DNA from: Acidimicrobiaceae bacterium
GTDB lineage: Bacteria > Actinomycetota > Acidimicrobiia > Acidimicrobiales > Ilumatobacteraceae
Direction of reading: 5' to 3'
NCBI GenBank assembly: GCA_002698945.1
Contig: NZZV01000011.1
Coordinates: forward strand, 1 to 44,298
Length of the DNA stretch: 44,298 nucleotides
The notes below the pieces were generated by a model that made no database searches, was not told where the DNA came from, and was given only the letters and a program-made list of their open reading frames with translations. A program made the translations under genes and the position numbers. Positions 15,409 through 22,563 of the stretch are shown piece by piece. Position 1 is the first letter of the stretch; each line of letters opens with the position of its first letter.

Positions 15409-16134
15409 TCAGCGGCGCGTCGCGATGACCAGGAACTCCGCCGTGTCGACGGACGGTTCGGCTCGGCGGTAGGCACCGGGTTCGACCGAGTCGATCGAAT
15501 CGACCGTCAGGTCGACCAGTTCGCACAGCAGCCGCAACTCGCGCGGGGTGTAGCAGCCGGTCCACAGGCTGGTCTCGGTCGTCGATCCGGCCTCGTCGCG
15601 GATCTCGGTCCGCTCATGGTTCACACCGGTGTCGGCGTCGAAGTCGGCACCTTCCCAGTGCTTCATCACGAAGTACGAACTGAAGGCGCTGAGCGCGAGC
15701 CGCCCACCAGGACGCAGGGTGCGTGCGATCCCGGCGAGCACGGTCCGGTCGTGACCGTCGGCGGTCATCAAACCGAACGCTCCCTGGCACAGGCAGATGG
15801 CCGCATCGAAACTGCCGGCGAGATCGTCACGCTCCACCAGGTGGCGGGCGTCCATGCGCTCGAAGGTTGCGCCGGACGGCGCCCCCTCCTTCGCGAGGTC
15901 GACGAACCGTTGGCTGACGTCGACGCCATGGGTCGCGATACCGCGTTCGGCCAGCTCGTAAGCGTGACGACCCGGGCCACAGCCGACGTCGAGCACTCGC
16001 ATGCCGGGCTCGAGACCGAGTTCGGCGACGAGGAAGTCGATCTCCTGACGGGTGCCCTTCGTGAACGAGTACCGCAGATAGGCGGCGCCGAGGTGGTCGG
16101 CGACGTCTTCGAACCAGTGATCGCGCTCAGGCAT
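15409..16134 (-). CDS. Class I SAM-dependent methyltransferase
   Basis: A 241-residue protein with the SAM-binding motif MRVLDVGCGPGRHAYELAER (about 45-64), motif II-like GVDVSQRFVDLAK, an acidic DAAICLCQGAFGLM (motif III/IV region) and the post-motif LRPGGRLALSAFSSYF. It belongs to the broad Methyltransf_11/25 type; the substrate is not readable from sequence. ATG 16134 overlaps the last 8 nt of the upstream ATPase gene, so it is translationally coupled to the iron ABC transporter operon. It may therefore modify a small molecule or protein linked to that operon (inference), or be a passenger. Confidence 0.8.
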   Translation of the reverse strand: MPERDHWFEDVADHLGAAYLRYSFTKGTRQEIDFLVAELGLEPGMRVLDVGCGPGRHAYELAERGIATHGVDVSQRFVDLAKEGAPSGATFERMDARHLVERDDLAGSFDAAICLCQGAFGLMTADGHDRTVLAGIARTLRPGGRLALSAFSSYFVMKHWEGADFDADTGVNHERTEIRDEAGSTTETSLWTGCYTPRELRLLCELVDLTVDSIDSVEPGAYRRAEPSVDTAEFLVIATRR

Positions 16135-17149
16135 CGAGCACGACCGGGTGGTGTCCGGGCCGCAGGCTCGCCCGGACGGCGGCGCCGACCTCGACCGGTT
16201 CGAGGTGGTTGCGCAACGACTTGACCCGGGCGCCGTGGGCGAGCCGAACGGTGTAGCACCAGACCGTGCCGCGGAACTCGGCATGCTCGACGACCGCACC
16301 GTCGCCGGGTTGGAGCACGATGTCGTCGGGGCGCAGCATCAGCGAGCGATCGGCCGCCGCGACCAGTGACGGGTCGAGATCGGCCGCGAGGCCGGTGACG
16401 TCGCCGGCTTCCGCGGTCGGCACGTAGCTCGCCTCTCCCATGAACGAGGCGACGAAACGGTCGACGGGCCGGTGGAACACCTCGACCGGCGTGCCGACCT
16501 GGACGATGCGACCGGCACGCAGGACGGCGATCCGGTCGCCGACGGCGAGGGCGTCGTGCTGATCGTGGGTGACGAACACCGCCGGGGTGCGGGTCGACCG
16601 CAGGATCGCCACGACGTCGTCGCGGACTCGCGCCCTCAGGTTGGTGTCGAGGCTCGCGAACGGCTCGTCCAGCAGCATCAGGTCGGGCTTGGGAGCCAGC
16701 GCCCGGGCGAGCGCGACCCGTTGACGCTCCCCGCCCGACAGCTCGTGCGGGAACCGCTCCGCGTACTCGGTCATGCCGACGAGTTCGAGCATCTCGGCCG
16801 CACGGGTCGATGACGTCTCGTCGCGGACACCGAACGCCACGTTGTCGGCGACGGAGAGGTGCGGGAACAGGGCGTGTTCCTGGAACACCAGCCCGACCCG
16901 TCGCCGCTCCGGCGGGAGCTGCACCCGGCCGTCGTCGACGACGCGATCGCCGAGTCGGATGGTGCCGGCGTCGATCGGGTGGATCCCGGCGATCGCCCGC
17001 AGGAGTGTCGATTTACCGCACCCGCTCGGTCCGACGAGCGCCAGCACCTCGTGATCGGCGAGGTCGATCGTCACGTCGTCGAGCGCGACGACCTGCCGGT
17101 GCAGCCGGCCGAAGCGTTTGGTCACGTGATCGAATTGCAGTGCCGTCAT
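16127..17149 (-). CDS. fbpC: Ferric-iron-type ABC transporter ATP-binding protein
   Basis: The 340-residue ATPase energises the adjacent permease. Motifs: Walker A GPSGCGKST (about 40-48), Q-loop VFQEHALFPHLSV, signature LSGGERQR (about 137-144), Walker B LMLLDEP (about 157-163), D-loop SLDTNLR, and switch His in VFVTHDQHDA. Residues about 240-340 form a TOBE-like regulatory domain (LMLRPDDIVLQ). This layout is that of FbpC/AfuC/PotA-type importers; the FutA/FbpA-like binding protein two genes upstream points to Fe3+. It starts 21 nt after the permease stop and overlaps the methyltransferase start. Confidence 0.88.
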   Translation of the reverse strand: MTALQFDHVTKRFGRLHRQVVALDDVTIDLADHEVLALVGPSGCGKSTLLRAIAGIHPIDAGTIRLGDRVVDDGRVQLPPERRRVGLVFQEHALFPHLSVADNVAFGVRDETSSTRAAEMLELVGMTEYAERFPHELSGGERQRVALARALAPKPDLMLLDEPFASLDTNLRARVRDDVVAILRSTRTPAVFVTHDQHDALAVGDRIAVLRAGRIVQVGTPVEVFHRPVDRFVASFMGEASYVPTAEAGDVTGLAADLDPSLVAAADRSLMLRPDDIVLQPGDGAVVEHAEFRGTVWCYTVRLAHGARVKSLRNHLEPVEVGAAVRASLRPGHHPVVLDA

Positions 17150-17170
17150 CGGGGAACTCCGGCGGTCAAG

Positions 17171-18802
17171 CTATCCGGGTCGTTCCAGCCGTCGCGAGAG
17201 CAGGGCGACGGGGACCAGCGCGACGACGATGATCGACAGCGCCGGAAGGGCCGCCTGTTCGTATCTGGACTCCGACGCCAGGTTGTAGACCCACACCGGC
17301 AGGGTCTCGAACCCGAACGGGCGCAACAGCAGCACGATCGGCAGTTCCTTGAGCGCGTCGACGCCGACCAGGATCGCCGCCGACAACAGCGACGCCTTCG
17401 ACAGCGGCAGGTGGACCCGTCGGACCGTCGCCATCGGCGTGGCGCCGAGCGAACGGGCCGATGCCGTCATCTCCTCCGACACCTGCCCGAGTCCGGATTC
17501 GACGGCACCGAGTCCGGGCGCCAGGAACCGGATCACGTAGGCGTACACCAGCACCAGCAGCGAACCGGTCGCGACCGCTCCTGGGAGGTCGAGTCCGAAC
17601 GACTCGAGGACCTCGTCGGCTCCGACGACGGCGAGCAGCACGCCCATCCCGACGACCGGGCCGGGCACCGCGTAGCCGATCGCCACCGCACGGGCCGCGA
17701 CGCCGGTCATCCGCCGACTCCCGAACCGCTGGGCGTTCGCCACCACGACGGCGACCAGCAGGCACACGGCGACCGTGATCGCCATCAACTGGAGCGAGTT
17801 GGCGAGGTACTCGGGGAACGCGTCGAGCAGCGGTGTCCCTTGCCCACCCGTCTGCTCCCGCACCGCCCAGACGACGAGCTGCAGGACCGGGCCGGCGAAC
17901 GCGACGAGGACGACGCCGCCGCACACCGCGGTCGCAGCCGCCGCCCGCCATCCCGACAGCACCCGACGCTCGAGACCGGCACCGGCACCGCCGCTCTGGC
18001 CGTACCGTGCCCGACCGCGGGCGATCCGCTCGATCGCGATCGCGACGAGCGCGAACGCCAACACCACCGTGGCGATCTCGGCGGCCGCGTCGCGGTCGTA
18101 GGTGCCACGCCAGATCCGGAACACCCCGACCGACACCGTGTCGACGCCGAAGTACTGGACCGTCGCGAAGTCGGTCAGGGTCTCCATCATCACGACGGCG
18201 GCGCCGGCCGCGATCGCGGGTCGCACGAGTGGCAGCACGACCCGACGCGCCGCCTCGGTCGGACCGGCGCCCAAGATCCGCGCCGCGAAGTACGCGCCAC
18301 CCGCCTGATCGCGGAGGGCGGCCCGGGCGAGCAGGTAGGTGTACGGATACAGCACCAGCGTGAACGCGATCGTCGCGCCCCAGATCGACTCGATGTCGGG
18401 GAACCAGGCGTCGGCGCCGAACCAGCTGCGCCACTGATCCTGCACGGGTCCGGTCGGCCCGAGCGTGGCGAGGGTGAGGAAGCCGAGGATGTAGCTCGGC
18501 ATCGCGAGCGGCAGGATCAGCATCCAGCCGAAGACGCGCACGCCCGGGAACCGATACGCCGACACCAGCCACGCCAGCCCGGTGCCGAGCACCGTCGAGC
18601 AGACGCCGACGCCGGCCAGCAACAGCGCGGTGTCGACGATCTCGCCGGGCAGACGTGTCGCCCACTGCTGCGACCAGACGTCGGTCCGCGGTGTCAGGAT
18701 GCTCGTCGCGAGCATCCCCACCGGGATCACCACGAGCGCGGCGATCACGACCGAGGTCCACGACCACCCGCTCCGGGAGGTCGGCCGACGAAACGCGATC
18801 AC
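17171..18802 (-). CDS. fbpB: Ferric-iron-type ABC transporter permease, two fused membrane modules
   Basis: The 543-residue integral membrane protein has about 12 transmembrane helices arranged as two homologous BPD_transp_1 modules, the normal FbpB/SfuB organisation. Each module has an EAA loop for contact with the ATPase: AARRVVLPLVRPAIAAGAA (first half, about residue 210) and ASARSLGATPMATVRRVHLP (second half, about residue 450). The start is GTG 18802, 16 nt after the stop of the binding-protein gene. It would form the translocation path for iron released by the lipoprotein next door. Substrate assignment rests on the neighbour rather than on the permease itself. Confidence 0.88.
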   Translation of the reverse strand: MIAFRRPTSRSGWSWTSVVIAALVVIPVGMLATSILTPRTDVWSQQWATRLPGEIVDTALLLAGVGVCSTVLGTGLAWLVSAYRFPGVRVFGWMLILPLAMPSYILGFLTLATLGPTGPVQDQWRSWFGADAWFPDIESIWGATIAFTLVLYPYTYLLARAALRDQAGGAYFAARILGAGPTEAARRVVLPLVRPAIAAGAAVVMMETLTDFATVQYFGVDTVSVGVFRIWRGTYDRDAAAEIATVVLAFALVAIAIERIARGRARYGQSGGAGAGLERRVLSGWRAAAATAVCGGVVLVAFAGPVLQLVVWAVREQTGGQGTPLLDAFPEYLANSLQLMAITVAVCLLVAVVVANAQRFGSRRMTGVAARAVAIGYAVPGPVVGMGVLLAVVGADEVLESFGLDLPGAVATGSLLVLVYAYVIRFLAPGLGAVESGLGQVSEEMTASARSLGATPMATVRRVHLPLSKASLLSAAILVGVDALKELPIVLLLRPFGFETLPVWVYNLASESRYEQAALPALSIIVVALVPVALLSRRLERPG

Positions 18803-18818
18803 GGGCGAGGAGTTCCGA

Positions 18819-19832
18819 TCAGCCGTAGCCGGCTTCGTCCATCAGCCGCACGGCGTCGGGGTTGAGCGCACCGAACACCGACGCCTGCAGCGGGTCGCGC
18901 ACGAAGTCGACGCCGAACCGTTCGACGAGCACCTCGTCGGGCGGGACGTCGGGATTGGCCGGGAACTCGTGGTTGCCGCCGATCAGCACCTGCTGGCCAT
19001 CGGTCGCGAGCCACTCGAGGAACGCAACGGCGTCCTCCGGGTGGCTCGAGTGCGTCGTGACCCCGCCACCCGACACGTTGACGTGGGTGCCGCGGTCGTC
19101 CTGGTTGGCCCAGATCAACTCGACGTTGAAGTCGGGGTTCTCGTCGTACTCGCGAGCGAGGTAGTAGTGGTTCGTGACGCCGACCTCGCACAGGCCGTCG
19201 TTGACCGCCTCGAGGATCAACACGTCGTTGCCCATGATGTCGGCGTTGGCCGCCCACCCCTCGACGATCTCGAGCGCCCCGTCGTACCCGTGGTGCTCGA
19301 TCAAGCTCGCGACGAGCGACTGCTGATAGACGTTCGACGCGTTGCGCATGCAGACCCGGTCGGCCCACTCCGGCTCGGCCAGTTCCTCGTAGGTGGTCGG
19401 AAGGTCGTCGACCGCGATCTCGTCGGGGTTGTAGACGATGGTGCGCGCCCGGACGGTCAGCCCGTACCAGAGCCCGTCGGGGTCGCTCAGCTCGGCCGGG
19501 ATCGCGGACGCCAGGACGTCGGAGTCGATCGGCTGGAACAGGCCGTCCGCCGCCGCAGCGGCGAGGTTGCCGGCGTCGACGGTGATGTAGGCGTCGGCAT
19601 CGGTCTCGTCGCCCTCGGCCGCGATCCGCTCGCGTAGTTCGGCGTCGTTGCCGGTGAGGAAGTCGACCTCGATGCCGGTTTCCTCGGTGAACTGCTCGAA
19701 CGCGGCCTCGATGCCGTAGTGGCGCCCGCTGTAGACGCGCAGGACGTCGTCGTCGCCACCGCACCCGGCAGCGGCGACGCCGACCGCGGCGAGGAGCGGC
19801 AGGGCGAGGCGACGTGTGGTTCGGGGGGTCAT
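18819..19832 (-). CDS. fbpA: Ferric-iron-binding lipoprotein of ABC transporter (FutA/FbpA-like)
   Basis: A 337-residue extracytoplasmic solute-binding protein. The signal peptide ends in a lipobox with Cys at about residue 24 (VAAAGCGG), so it is membrane-anchored. Two metal-ligand regions of the FutA/FbpA family are clear: VYSGRHYG (about 33-40) and the tyrosine pair in TNHYYLARE (about 220-228). Such proteins bind unchelated Fe3+ through Tyr and His. ATG 19832 is chosen because it sits 8 nt after the upstream fusion-enzyme stop and 5 nt after a TAGGAG Shine-Dalgarno. Operon order: fusion enzyme, binding protein, permease, ATPase, methyltransferase. Binding of an iron chelate instead of free iron is possible given the fusion enzyme. 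Confidence 0.9.
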   Translation of the reverse strand: MTPRTTRRLALPLLAAVGVAAAGCGGDDDVLRVYSGRHYGIEAAFEQFTEETGIEVDFLTGNDAELRERIAAEGDETDADAYITVDAGNLAAAAADGLFQPIDSDVLASAIPAELSDPDGLWYGLTVRARTIVYNPDEIAVDDLPTTYEELAEPEWADRVCMRNASNVYQQSLVASLIEHHGYDGALEIVEGWAANADIMGNDVLILEAVNDGLCEVGVTNHYYLAREYDENPDFNVELIWANQDDRGTHVNVSGGGVTTHSSHPEDAVAFLEWLATDGQQVLIGGNHEFPANPDVPPDEVLVERFGVDFVRDPLQASVFGALNPDAVRLMDEAGYG

Positions 19833-19839
19833 GGAACTC

Positions 19840-22527
19840 CTAGACGAGTGAGGTCGCCGGCCGGTGATCGGCGGCGACGGGTCGGGATCGTACGGTCGAC
19901 GCCAGGCGCTCACGCACCAGCCTCGGACCGTGGGTGAAGGTCCACCAGACGCCGATCGACGCCAGCACCGTGAGCGGATAGGCGACCTCGACGATGAACC
20001 AGTCCTTCATCGGCGGCCAGATCATGAAGTGGCTGATGAGGATCCACATGCTGGCCGCCGCGACGGTGGCGATCGGGGCGACCGCGGGTCGTGGCAACGG
20101 GATCTCCTTCACCCAGACGAGCAGCACCAGTCCGGTCGCGATGAAGTACTCGCGCTGGGGGTTCTGGAACACGCCGTACGCGGTGACGAGCGCGATCAGG
20201 CTGGTGGCGACCTGCTGATGTCGGCGTGTCGAGCGCTGCACGAGCCAGCCGAGCACGAAGAACCAGGCCACGGCGTGGGTCCGGAACCGCAGGTTGTACC
20301 AATCGCCCATGTCGGCCCAGTCCATCCGGAGCGTGAGGACGCCGCCGAGCAACGCGAGCGGGAACGCGTACGGGAACCGCAGGTCGAGACGACGTACCGC
20401 CGGGATGGCCGTGACGAGCAGGGTCAGCACGACGACGTGCACGAACACTTCGATGAACCAGAAGTGCCAGTGGTTGCCGGCGTGTGATCGCGGCCCGATG
20501 TAGTTGTTGACGAGGGTGAGCGTGTGCCACGTGTACTGACCCACGGCCATGAACGCCAGCGTCCAGAGCACGGTCGGCACGGCGACACGCAGCACGGTGC
20601 GGAATCCCGACCGCAACCGCGCCTGCGTGTCGGCGATCGGCATCGTGAACCGGGCGAGGTTGTAGCCGACCACACCGAGCAGCAGGTGCGATCCACCCGG
20701 TACGTGCCAGAGGCGCATGTGGGTCGAGACGACGGCGAGGATGCCGACCGCTCGGAGCACGACGGTCGTGTCGACCCGGGCGAGTCGGCGCGGCGCGCGT
20801 TCGGCGGCGAGTTCACGGACCGGACGGAGATGCCAGTCGGTCGGCAGCGATCCGAGGGCTCGCTCGAGCCGGATCGAACACTCGATGTAGCTGAGTGAGT
20901 CGCCGCCCAGACCGACGAAGGTGTCGTCGTCGGTGATCGCGTCGACGCCGAGCACCGCCATCAGCGTCGCACGCACGGCCGCGCCACGGTCGGTCGGGTC
21001 ACCGTTGCCGATCGAGGGATCACCGGGCGCGGTCGGGATCGCGTCGTGGGCGTCGCGCAGCAGCGTCGGGTAGTCGAGTTTGCCGTTGCTCGTCCGGGGT
21101 GCGGTTCGGTCGAACGCGACGATGCGGTTGGAGGGCAGGCCGGTCGCTGCGGCGACCAACTCGACCGTTCGCGACGGGTCGGTCCGAGGTGCGGCGGCGA
21201 CCACCAGATCGTCGTCGCCGGCGACGACGGCCTCGACCCCGGCATCCGCGAGTCGTCGTTCGACGTCGTCCAGGTCGATGCGGAAGCCGAACGGCTTCAC
21301 CCGCCGCGCGAGTCGACCGACCACCCGGACGAACCCGGTCTCGGGGTCGACCCGCCCGAGGTCGCCGGTTCGGAGTTCGGAGATCGTGCGGCCGAGCGCC
21401 AGATCGGCGGGTTCGGTGGCGTAGCCGAGCATGACGTTGGGCCCGCGATACACGATCTCGCCGACCGCGTCGTCGGTCACGGATCCGCGCGGATCGTCGG
21501 TCGGGCCGGGCTGGGCATCGACCTGGTCGGTCGGGCGGATCTCGAGGGTGCCACCGGGGATGGCGATACCGATCGCGTCGGGGTTGGACCGGACCGCTGT
21601 CGGTGGCACATACGTCATCCGGGCCGTGGCCTCGGTCTGGCCGTACATCGAGAACCACTGCGCATGCCAACGCCCGGCACGCGCCGACCAGGCCGCGATC
21701 TTGTCGGGGGCCATGCGACCACCTGCCTGGGCCAGGAAACGCAGTGTCGGCACCCTGATCTGCTCGGGTCCGGCTCGGTCGATCAGATCGTAGGTGTGCG
21801 GGACACCGGCGAGGTTCGTGACGCCGTGGTCGAGCAGGAGCGCCCGGAAACAGGGATCGACGACCGACGTCGACGTGACGACGACCGACGCCCCGGCGAT
21901 CAGGTGGGAGTGCAGGACCGACAATCCGAAGCTGTAGTGCAGCGGGAGGCTGGTGATGCCGACGTCGTCGGTGGTGATGCCCTGGAACTCGGCGATCGAC
22001 GCCGCGTTCGCCACGAGGTTGTCGGTCGACAGACGGACGAGCTTCGGGTTGCCGGTCGACCCGCTGGTGCTCATCAGCAGCCCGAGCTCGGGGTGGATCG
22101 ACGTCGACGGGTTCTCGTCACCGACGTCGAACCGGACGTCGAGCCGCCACTCGTCAGCGCCGACCCTCAGCGTCGCCGCCGGCGACCACCGTTCGACGAG
22201 CCGGTCGACGTGATCGGATGCCAACAGCGGGACGTCGCGCCGCGCCAACAGCGCCAGGTACGACACGACCCACTCGACGTCGTTGTCGCCGGTCAACACC
22301 ACGACGGAGCGTTCGGGCAGTCCCGCTCGGTCGAATGCCGCGACGCGCTCGTCGATCAGGTCCGCGAGTTCGCCGTACGAGATCGTTCCGGCGCGATGGG
22401 CCAGTGCAGGCTGAGACGAGCGAGCCCCGTCGCCGATCGCGAACAGGTCGGCGCCCAGGACCGTGTGCCGCTCGCCGGCGGGCTCGTTCCGTTGGCGGAC
22501 GCGTGGATGCGTCGAGGTCGTCGGCAC
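19840..22527 (-). CDS. Adenylation-carrier-membrane acyltransferase fusion (NRPS-like, Dlt-like logic)
   Basis: An 895-residue three-part protein. Residues about 30-490 form an ANL adenylation domain: A3 MSTSGSTGNPKLV, A5 MYGQTEATARM, A7 ELRTGDLGRV, A8 GRLARRVKPFGFRIDLDDVE and A10 with catalytic Lys in SNGKLDY. Its A4 region reads LPLHYSFGL, like acyl- or aryl-acid ligases, and lacks the Asp typical of alpha-amino-acid domains. Residues about 515-580 are a carrier domain with the phosphopantetheine Ser544 in GLGGDSLSYIE. Residues about 588-880 contain some ten hydrophobic helices with an acyltransferase-3 pattern (RAVGILAVVSTHMRLW). One polypeptide could thus activate an acid, load it on its carrier and transfer it to an acceptor at or across the membrane. 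The GTG start has a -10 only 6 nt upstream. It heads the iron-transport operon. Confidence 0.85.
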   Translation of the reverse strand: MPTTSTHPRVRQRNEPAGERHTVLGADLFAIGDGARSSQPALAHRAGTISYGELADLIDERVAAFDRAGLPERSVVVLTGDNDVEWVVSYLALLARRDVPLLASDHVDRLVERWSPAATLRVGADEWRLDVRFDVGDENPSTSIHPELGLLMSTSGSTGNPKLVRLSTDNLVANAASIAEFQGITTDDVGITSLPLHYSFGLSVLHSHLIAGASVVVTSTSVVDPCFRALLLDHGVTNLAGVPHTYDLIDRAGPEQIRVPTLRFLAQAGGRMAPDKIAAWSARAGRWHAQWFSMYGQTEATARMTYVPPTAVRSNPDAIGIAIPGGTLEIRPTDQVDAQPGPTDDPRGSVTDDAVGEIVYRGPNVMLGYATEPADLALGRTISELRTGDLGRVDPETGFVRVVGRLARRVKPFGFRIDLDDVERRLADAGVEAVVAGDDDLVVAAAPRTDPSRTVELVAAATGLPSNRIVAFDRTAPRTSNGKLDYPTLLRDAHDAIPTAPGDPSIGNGDPTDRGAAVRATLMAVLGVDAITDDDTFVGLGGDSLSYIECSIRLERALGSLPTDWHLRPVRELAAERAPRRLARVDTTVVLRAVGILAVVSTHMRLWHVPGGSHLLLGVVGYNLARFTMPIADTQARLRSGFRTVLRVAVPTVLWTLAFMAVGQYTWHTLTLVNNYIGPRSHAGNHWHFWFIEVFVHVVVLTLLVTAIPAVRRLDLRFPYAFPLALLGGVLTLRMDWADMGDWYNLRFRTHAVAWFFVLGWLVQRSTRRHQQVATSLIALVTAYGVFQNPQREYFIATGLVLLVWVKEIPLPRPAVAPIATVAAASMWILISHFMIWPPMKDWFIVEVAYPLTVLASIGVWWTFTHGPRLVRERLASTVRSRPVAADHRPATSLV

Positions 22528-22533
22528 GCCCCC

Positions 22534-22563
22534 AGGTTAAGGATGGCTAACACCATTTGCCAA
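22534..22563 (-). promoter_or_regulatory. Promoter of the fusion-enzyme/iron-transport operon (leaderless)
   Basis: Minus strand: -35 TTGGCA (22563-22558), 18-nt spacer, -10 TAACCT (22539-22534), then 6 nt to GTG 22527. Both hexamers are good, so transcription should begin at the start codon. The iron-box-like element at 22537-22555 overlaps the -10 and spacer. Confidence 0.65.
22537..22555. promoter_or_regulatory. Possible IdeR/DtxR iron-box-like element
   Basis: The minus strand reads TGGTGTTAGCCATCCTTAA, matching 12 of 19 positions of the IdeR/DtxR consensus TTAGGTTAGSCTAACCTAA, including the run GTTAGCC and terminal TAA. The match is modest, but the site covers the promoter of an operon that encodes a ferric-iron importer. 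Confidence 0.3.

Follow-up and report, generated by a model that had tools for sequence, protein, structure and literature searches.

The acylation chemistry considered here is best known from the Dlt system (DltA, DltC, DltB, and DltD), in which separate proteins activate D-alanine, load it onto a carrier, and transfer it across the membrane to an extracytoplasmic acceptor. AT3 (TmAT) acyltransferases such as OafB, OatA, and VanT are presumed to transfer acyl groups across the membrane, and the epsilon-poly-lysine synthetase (Pls) and similar proteins resembling nonribosomal peptide synthetases (NRPS) place a membrane part behind an adenylation and a carrier domain. FbpABC/FutABC ferric importers are, to our knowledge, described without an acylation enzyme. 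Here, we describe a gene from a 44,298-nucleotide stretch of an Acidimicrobiaceae genome (contig NZZV01000011.1, assembly GCA_002698945.1; the whole stretch is referred to as the window) whose 895-aa product fuses an adenylation (A) domain, a carrier (T) domain, and an AT3 membrane domain, and which stands directly before a complete ferric importer. Patterns of sequence and gene order support a transmembrane acylation enzyme that is iron-regulated and works together with ferric importers, possibly assisting iron uptake in a way not yet described.

A fused adenylation, carrier, and AT3 protein

The gene and its domains lie at the following positions.

19840-22527, minus strand: A-T-AT3 fusion gene, GTG start, 895 aa
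21040..22527, minus strand: A domain, residues ~1-496, motifs A3 to A10 (Pfam AMP-binding, VinN alignment, and conservation in 51 relatives)
20824..21000, minus strand: T domain, residues ~510-568, phosphopantetheine Ser544 in GGDS, Pfam PP-binding at 517-559
19843..20790, minus strand: AT3 membrane domain, residues ~580-895, R592-X10-H603, with R643, T644, and R647 where a standard RXXR would be expected

That a single open reading frame (ORF) combines adenylation, carrier, and AT3-like parts had been proposed in a preliminary description of this DNA, and Pfam matches, motifs, and 10 hydropathy peaks bear this out. In a scan of the whole 895-aa protein, AMP-binding scored 132.5 bits, and residues 517-559 matched PP-binding at 28.5 bits; Acyl_transf_3 (PF01757) was seen only with the C-terminal part scanned alone, at 28.0 bits (E 1.4e-6; Pfam cut-off 31). 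Ten relatives scanned whole gave an AT3 match in eight, above the cut-off at loci L016, L018, L050, and L103 and below it at the other four, with none in the remaining two. PP-binding matched above its cut-off in the window protein and in 8 of the 10 relatives, fell below it in L095, and was absent from L103. Averaged over 51 aligned relatives, the AT3 part has 10 hydropathy peaks by our own threshold. Among the best 25 matches listed for each of four A-T-AT3 proteins, no NCBIfam model exceeded its own cut-off.

The window protein carries TSGSTG at position 154, YGQTE at 295, TGDL at 387, NGK at 481 (with the A10 Lys483), and GGDS at 541 (with Ser544). Across the 51 members of at least 600 aa, the A-domain core residues Y295, G296, E299, D389, G404, K411, and K483 are invariant, as are R592, H603, W690, and E693 in the AT3 part; G159 is kept in 50, with one gap, and the position of the carrier Ser544 is a serine in all 51. 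The motif around this serine reads GGNS instead of GGDS in five Mycobacteriaceae (L090, L091, L092, L097, and L105) and GVDS in L056.

We examined 54 loci: the window, 39 other whole-genome loci, and 14 plasmid loci that were hand-chosen among the best-ranked matches (15 of 30 rows listed, one repeating L092). An A-T-AT3 frame is present at 53 of the 54, and the remaining locus, L065, was missed by ORF picking and is visible by tblastn. The tree and motif counts were made on 51 members (50 at 733-979 aa and one at 1141 aa, the run-on frame of L013 having been trimmed to 812), leaving out L017 and L058 (<600 aa) and L065. Searching genome samples of the order, class, and phylum with a T-AT3 profile built from 8 sequences, we found that 25 of the 397 order genomes encode the fused protein, all at E 5.1e-94 or better. 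A clear gap lies below the fused proteins, and a 26th genome of the order, G403, holds stand-alone AT3s only, at ~1e-40; besides the fused proteins and these two (L046 and L047, 329 and 338 aa long), the order sample gave no match to the profile up to 1e-25. The profile matched in 15 of 395 class genomes and 15 of 396 phylum genomes, the samples sharing some genomes. Hosts of plasmid-borne members include Rhodococcus fascians D188, R. opacus B4, R. gordoniae, Mycolicibacterium chubuense, and Arthrobacter, and further hosts named in plasmid records are Rhizobium etli, Sinorhizobium meliloti, and Leisingera. Public annotation at 13 of the 14 plasmid loci is "AMP-binding protein," the 14th record being unannotated.

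The fusion family thus recurs across Actinomycetota and in Rhizobiaceae and Leisingera, and because fused relatives recur in all of these groups, the fusion is real and not a joining or assembly error. With the A-T-AT3 frame at 53 loci, the objection raised at the outset, that a sequencing error had joined two ORFs, fails.

Ferric importers beside the fusion gene

Four genes follow the fusion gene in the window.

18819..19832, minus strand: ferric-iron-binding lipoprotein (FutA/FbpA type), ATG at 19832, PDB matches
17171..18802, minus strand: double permease of the ferric ABC importer, two BPD_transp_1 stretches (Pfam)
16127..17149, minus strand: importer ATPase, ABC_tran + TOBE_2
15409..16299, minus strand: methyltransferase, adjoining the importer and judged to lie outside the system

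All four had been named, in this order, in the preliminary description, and Pfam and PDB matches confirm each of them. The adjacency of fusion gene and lipoprotein also stands, with a gap to the lipoprotein ATG of 7 nt rather than the 8 nt given earlier. The window lipoprotein has a lipobox-like AAGC, and its best solved matches are the ferric-binding proteins 7li0 (8.8e-73) and 2pt1 (7.1e-65). In this type of substrate-binding protein (SBP), the residues H222, Y223, and Y224 are invariant in 13/13 aligned sequences, the adjacent tyrosines presumably being iron ligands.

A complete ferric importer adjoins the fusion gene at 22 of the 54 loci, which are not a random sample because the plasmid loci were chosen, and at 15 of 40 whole-genome loci. 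Among the 22 linked loci, fusion gene and importer stand in six arrangements. The fusion gene comes first in the window genus, L081, and Rhodococcus and last in Mycobacteriaceae and L082; it is divergent at L049 and convergent at L062; it lies between permease and ATPase in opposite orientation at L015 and L080; and it follows the ATPase at L016, where SBP and permease are divergent. The earlier portrayal of the fusion gene as an operon leader is therefore not general, given its last place in Mycobacteriaceae and the 32 loci with no adjacent importer, which also led us to reject the expectation of a transporter at every locus. The coupling to ferric import holds and reaches further than the window alone could show, through these 22 loci, their six arrangements, and the iron-box-like sites that also precede unlinked members (see below). 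The methyltransferase was rejected as part of the system: it is present only in the window and at the same-genus loci L012 and L013, between the importer and rpsA.

At the plasmid loci L093 (R. fascians D188) and L097 (M. chubuense pMYCCH.01), the fusion-importer set lies near a P-type ATPase and cadmium resistance genes, with arsenic resistance genes also nearby at L097, and the set may belong to a metal-handling island.

On a quick tree of the 51 proteins, the importer label changes five times, and at least three of these changes are forced by well-supported branches. The alphaproteobacterial members (L095, L096, L103, L104, and L106) form a separate long branch and have no adjacent ferric importer. 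The importer SBPs fall into three groups, and one searched from each gave 7li0, SfuA 1xvy, and 7w3w, respectively, as the best PDB match. Because the SBPs are only ~30% identical between groups and have different solved relatives, the importers are not one inherited operon. At the level of whole genomes, such a ferric SBP is found in 35 of 40 A-T-AT3 genomes and is single copy in 32 of those 35.

When the genes flanking all 54 loci were clustered, the permease was recovered at 20, the SBP at 19, and ABC ATPases at 13 (a mixed cluster that includes ATPases from unlinked loci). Outside the importer, this clustering yielded no gene family at more than 5 of the 54 loci, nor did dedicated biosynthetic neighbours recur at unlinked loci. 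These counts bear on an explanation in which the AT3 part passes a carrier-bound acid to a small molecule at the membrane, yielding an acylated siderophore or another small diffusible chelator that brings Fe3+ to the ferric SBP. The iron-box-like sites and the linkage to importers would suit such a role. The stand-alone AT3s CmmA, MdmB, and Asm19 reportedly act on small molecules. They are also cited as users of acetyl-CoA in vitro in a passage of PMC9833829, and two MsbA-type ABC transporter genes beside an unlinked fusion gene (L061) could be read in the same way. No siderophore biosynthesis family, however, recurs beside the gene, the non-importer families being confined to 5 loci or fewer; Pfam found no siderophore synthesis family among 20 neighbours at eight unlinked loci (4 of the 20 had no match); and the SBPs match proteins that bind Fe3+ directly. 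We consider this explanation fairly unlikely.

The two transporter genes at L061 (9142-12824) overlap each other and lie on the strand opposite to the A-T-AT3 gene; among the matches listed for them, no model exceeded its cut-off. They might form a paired siderophore transporter of the IrtAB kind. ABC ATPase matches also occur near the fusion gene at L066 and L058.

The pairing with importers might also be fortuitous, an ordinary mobile fusion enzyme having come to lie near transporters, as the many plasmid-borne members and the loci without an adjacent importer would allow. Against this stand the complete importer at 22 loci, whose SBP type is mostly present once per genome, the three or more separate changes of the importer label among the 51 proteins, and the iron-box-like sites and S. 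meliloti co-induction described below. A fortuitous pairing is already strongly disfavoured, and we regard it as very improbable. The preliminary description would have called the coupling fortuitous if homologues occurred mostly without iron transporters and the AT3 part lacked its His/Arg pair in a structure model; most loci do lack an adjacent importer by count, but the pair is present in the sequences of 51/51 members.

Iron-box-like sites and co-induction

Stretches from -90 to +20 nt around predicted starts were scanned with a 19-mer that we take to be the DtxR/IdeR box consensus, at a threshold of 12/19. Excluded from the test were the five loci from Alphaproteobacteria, genes with <100 nt of sequence, and those that their blastp score marked as importer or methyltransferase genes. 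A box-like site reached the threshold in 23 of the 45 actinobacterial members with sufficient flanking sequence versus 14 of 513 further genes taken from these loci, and unlinked members alone had one in 12 of 24 cases (Fisher p 1.8e-11 versus these controls, kinship ignored). The sites are also placed consistently, 21 of the 23 beginning 20-42 nt before the predicted start. The window has the following site.

22537..22555, minus strand: weak DtxR/IdeR-box-like 19-mer, 12/19, just upstream of the start codon

The box of the same-genus locus L014 is stronger (14/19, reached by 0/100 shuffles). Five of the 22 members that stay below the threshold are from Mycobacteriaceae; there, the last-placed fusion gene has no box of its own (8-9/19 in five), and the SBP, the first importer gene, scores 15 at L090, 13 at L097, 13 at L105, and 11 at L091. 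The alphaproteobacterial L096, L104, and L106 scored 11/19 among the matches listed in an earlier scan. All 10 genomes searched for a DtxR-family gene have one (nine of the 10 carry the fusion), as do 11 of 14 control genomes, the family being common. In the unlinked genome G117 (contig C14, 94198-97431), the single ferric SBP lies ~2 kb from a DtxR-family regulator gene. A mechanical scan for promoters and terminators gave no signal above chance; in the window, polA lies upstream of the fusion gene.

Published expression data point in the same direction. We provisionally assign the S. meliloti member to SMc00592 by gene order in strain Ak57, counting back from ndk; passages of PMC2912261 and PMC12542648 give ndk as SMc00595 and uvrC as SMc00602, and the SMc numbering matches gene by gene from ndk to uvrC. 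In Table 2 of PMC2848241, a microarray study, SMc00592 is listed as a "hypothetical, transmembrane protein" that rises with hemin (hmu), ferrichrome (fhu), and iron-ABC genes. Of the 36 genes listed, SMb21431 has the profile closest to that of SMc00592, and it is described as a possible component of an iron ABC transporter SBP; the list is itself iron-rich, with 17 of 36 genes so counted by its authors. Iron regulation of the fusion gene is therefore supported by a sequence pattern and by one published microarray.

Regulation of this kind is also what would be expected if surface acylation were one branch of a general iron-starvation response that alters envelope charge or permeability, with no binding or delivery of iron. 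Unlinked members carry iron-box-like sites, AT3s are reviewed in part of PMC9558356 as modifying surface carbohydrates, and the stand-alone AT3 AimS is linked to nutritional immunity in Acinetobacter in a passage of PMC13345540. Pairing with the importer, in six arrangements and with three SBP groups, exceeds what shared regulation needs, and we think it unlikely that such a response is the whole function.

Proposed reaction and relation to known systems

In AT3s, conservation is given as absolute for the R-X10-H motif and as high for RXXR, and the second Arg of RXXR, Arg74, is among the residues that bound the CoA 3'-phosphate in simulations (passages of PMC9833829). R-X10-H is found in 51/51 fusion members and in all of 30 ordinary AT3s taken as controls from seven fusion-bearing genomes. 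At the RXXR site, the first Arg is present at the aligned place in 0/51 members and the second in 40/51, whereas 28 of the 30 controls have a motif of the RXXR kind (R/K allowed). We read this change as a relaxed need for CoA because the phosphopantetheine of the fused carrier would be the donor; it is compatible with an acyl donor carried by the phosphopantetheine of the same protein instead of CoA, without proving one. In 27/51 members the residue just before the first-Arg position is basic, and 21 of these also have the second Arg, so that a shifted motif of the form R-X3-R may persist in some of the family. The fusion itself is a better argument for a carrier-borne donor than the RXXR site. 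A gene of the phosphopantetheinyl transferase family is present in 9/9 genomes searched, as in most bacteria.

The best PDB match by sequence is chain 3wvn (9.8e-21), which we take to be VinN, its Asp and Arg fitting the published VinN numbers at a constant offset of 16. Aligned to VinN, the window pocket consists of S199, F200, S203, G241, A266, A268, M294, A302, R303, and K483; the family pocket reads Cys/Ser-Tyr/Phe-Ser-Gly-Thr-Ala-Met-Ala-Arg, one exact string occurring in 35 of the 51 members, and the window string is Ser-Phe-Ser-Gly-Ala-Ala-Met-Ala-Arg. The absence of the amino-acid Asp from the A4 region, already pointed out for the window, extends to the whole family: the position of VinN Asp230, the residue that binds the amino group in VinN, is Cys in 41/51 and Ser in 10/51. 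R303, in contrast, stands at the place of VinN Arg331 and is kept in 51/51; passages of PMC7756342 and PMC12186527 describe Arg331 as binding the second carboxylate of the substrate. None of 22 other A domains of the window genome has Arg in this column, 3 of them being gapped there (29 were taken and 7 failed a motif check). The "acyl or aryl acid" of the preliminary description thus becomes, by way of the pocket Arg, perhaps a dicarboxylic acid. A nearly invariant pocket shared by linked and unlinked members, in Actinomycetota and Alphaproteobacteria alike, suggests that all use the same acid. Since no biosynthetic neighbours recur, ordinary metabolism probably supplies both the acid and its acceptor.

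We propose that the fusion protein is an iron-starvation-induced, self-contained transmembrane acylation enzyme that turns a carrier-borne dicarboxylate into an Fe3+ ligand feeding the FutA/FbpA-type importer, a reading to which we give an even chance. The cytosolic A domain would adenylate a small carboxylic acid, probably one of the dicarboxylates of central metabolism, and transfer it to the built-in carrier at Ser544. Instead of CoA, the phosphopantetheine arm would then enter the pore of the 10-helix AT3 domain and present the acyl group to an extracytoplasmic acceptor, with catalysis by His603 and Arg592. Either an envelope component or a secreted molecule would thereby gain an ester or amide with an exposed carboxylate, which would hold Fe3+ near the surface and hand it to the importer. 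The sequences themselves show the domain make-up, the residues that never vary, and the recurrent pairing with ferric importers; we infer the acid class, the carrier-borne donor, the acceptor, and the iron-ligand role. In its narrowest form, that of a single-gene iron-ligand synthetase that threads a dicarboxylate on its own phosphopantetheine arm to make an envelope or secreted Fe3+ ligand for FbpA/FutA, the proposal is tentative and we hold it doubtful.

Several observations weigh against this proposal. The 32 loci without an adjacent importer, some of them on short contigs, are the majority, and 5 of the 40 A-T-AT3 genomes lack such an SBP at E 1e-20. Within the order, the SBP occurs in 21 of 25 A-T-AT3 genomes versus 202 of 372 others (Fisher p 0.0025, kinship ignored), a co-occurrence that is modest because the SBP is common anyway (223 of 397 genomes); adjacency is the stronger sign of an iron link. 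Twenty-two of the 45 members tested have no box at 12/19, the window's own box is reached by 8/100 shuffles, the box consensus is one that we assume, and the identity of SMc00592 rests on gene order. The AT3 match of the window protein falls under the Pfam cut-off. The shifted basic residue and the frequent second Arg make the RXXR site a weak basis for a CoA-free reaction, and the carboxylate reading rests on one residue because VinN Ser299 is Ala in the fusion family.

Taken as a whole, the interpretation offered in the preliminary description is partly supported. If our proposal is true, ferric capture would exist in a form distinct from both siderophores and direct uptake, and an AT3 would work with a carrier-bound donor, for which our literature search found no described case. 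The work points to an acylation step in FbpA/FutA ferric uptake, where that search likewise found none. A widespread protein with no annotation beyond "AMP-binding protein" would then be recognised as a defined, iron-tied transmembrane acylation machine, and it offers a one-polypeptide system in which to ask how AT3 proteins obtain their acyl donor.

The literature search, with subscription papers mostly outside its reach, found no description of the A-T-AT3 architecture; one candidate, PMC554113, was rejected, as the part concerned lists ordinary NRPS architectures. Fusions of AT3s to SGNH, alanine/serine racemase, and NRF domains are mentioned in AT3 papers including PMC9558356 and PMC9833829, whose passages on fusions mention no adenylation-carrier fusion. 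The fusion protein shares R-X10-H and 10 hydropathy peaks with OafB, OatA, and VanT and differs from them in its N-terminal A and T domains and in an RXXR motif that is not conserved; it is of the AT3 type, with one of the AT3 motifs not retained in its usual form. With the VinN-type beta-amino-acid enzymes (VinN, BolO, and AfcQ) it shares the equivalent of Arg331, but Asp230 and Ser299 are replaced, and the carrier is fused where VinN uses a free-standing acyl carrier protein. Unlike Pls, it has a membrane part that matches AT3 and lacks the amino-acid Asp in its pocket. The neighbouring SBP, permease, and ATPase are of the same kind as those of FbpABC/FutABC. The likeness to Dlt is one of activation, carrier loading, and transmembrane acyl transfer to an extracytoplasmic acceptor, and the Dlt-like division of labour within a single polypeptide, suggested earlier for the window, is supported. 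The differences are that the fusion is one polypeptide, has AT3 instead of the MBOAT protein DltB (Pfam scans of the C-terminal part of the window protein and of 10 relatives matched no MBOAT model), lacks the D-Ala pocket with its A4 Asp, and is paired with iron import. The fusion works like Dlt but is not a member of the Dlt system.

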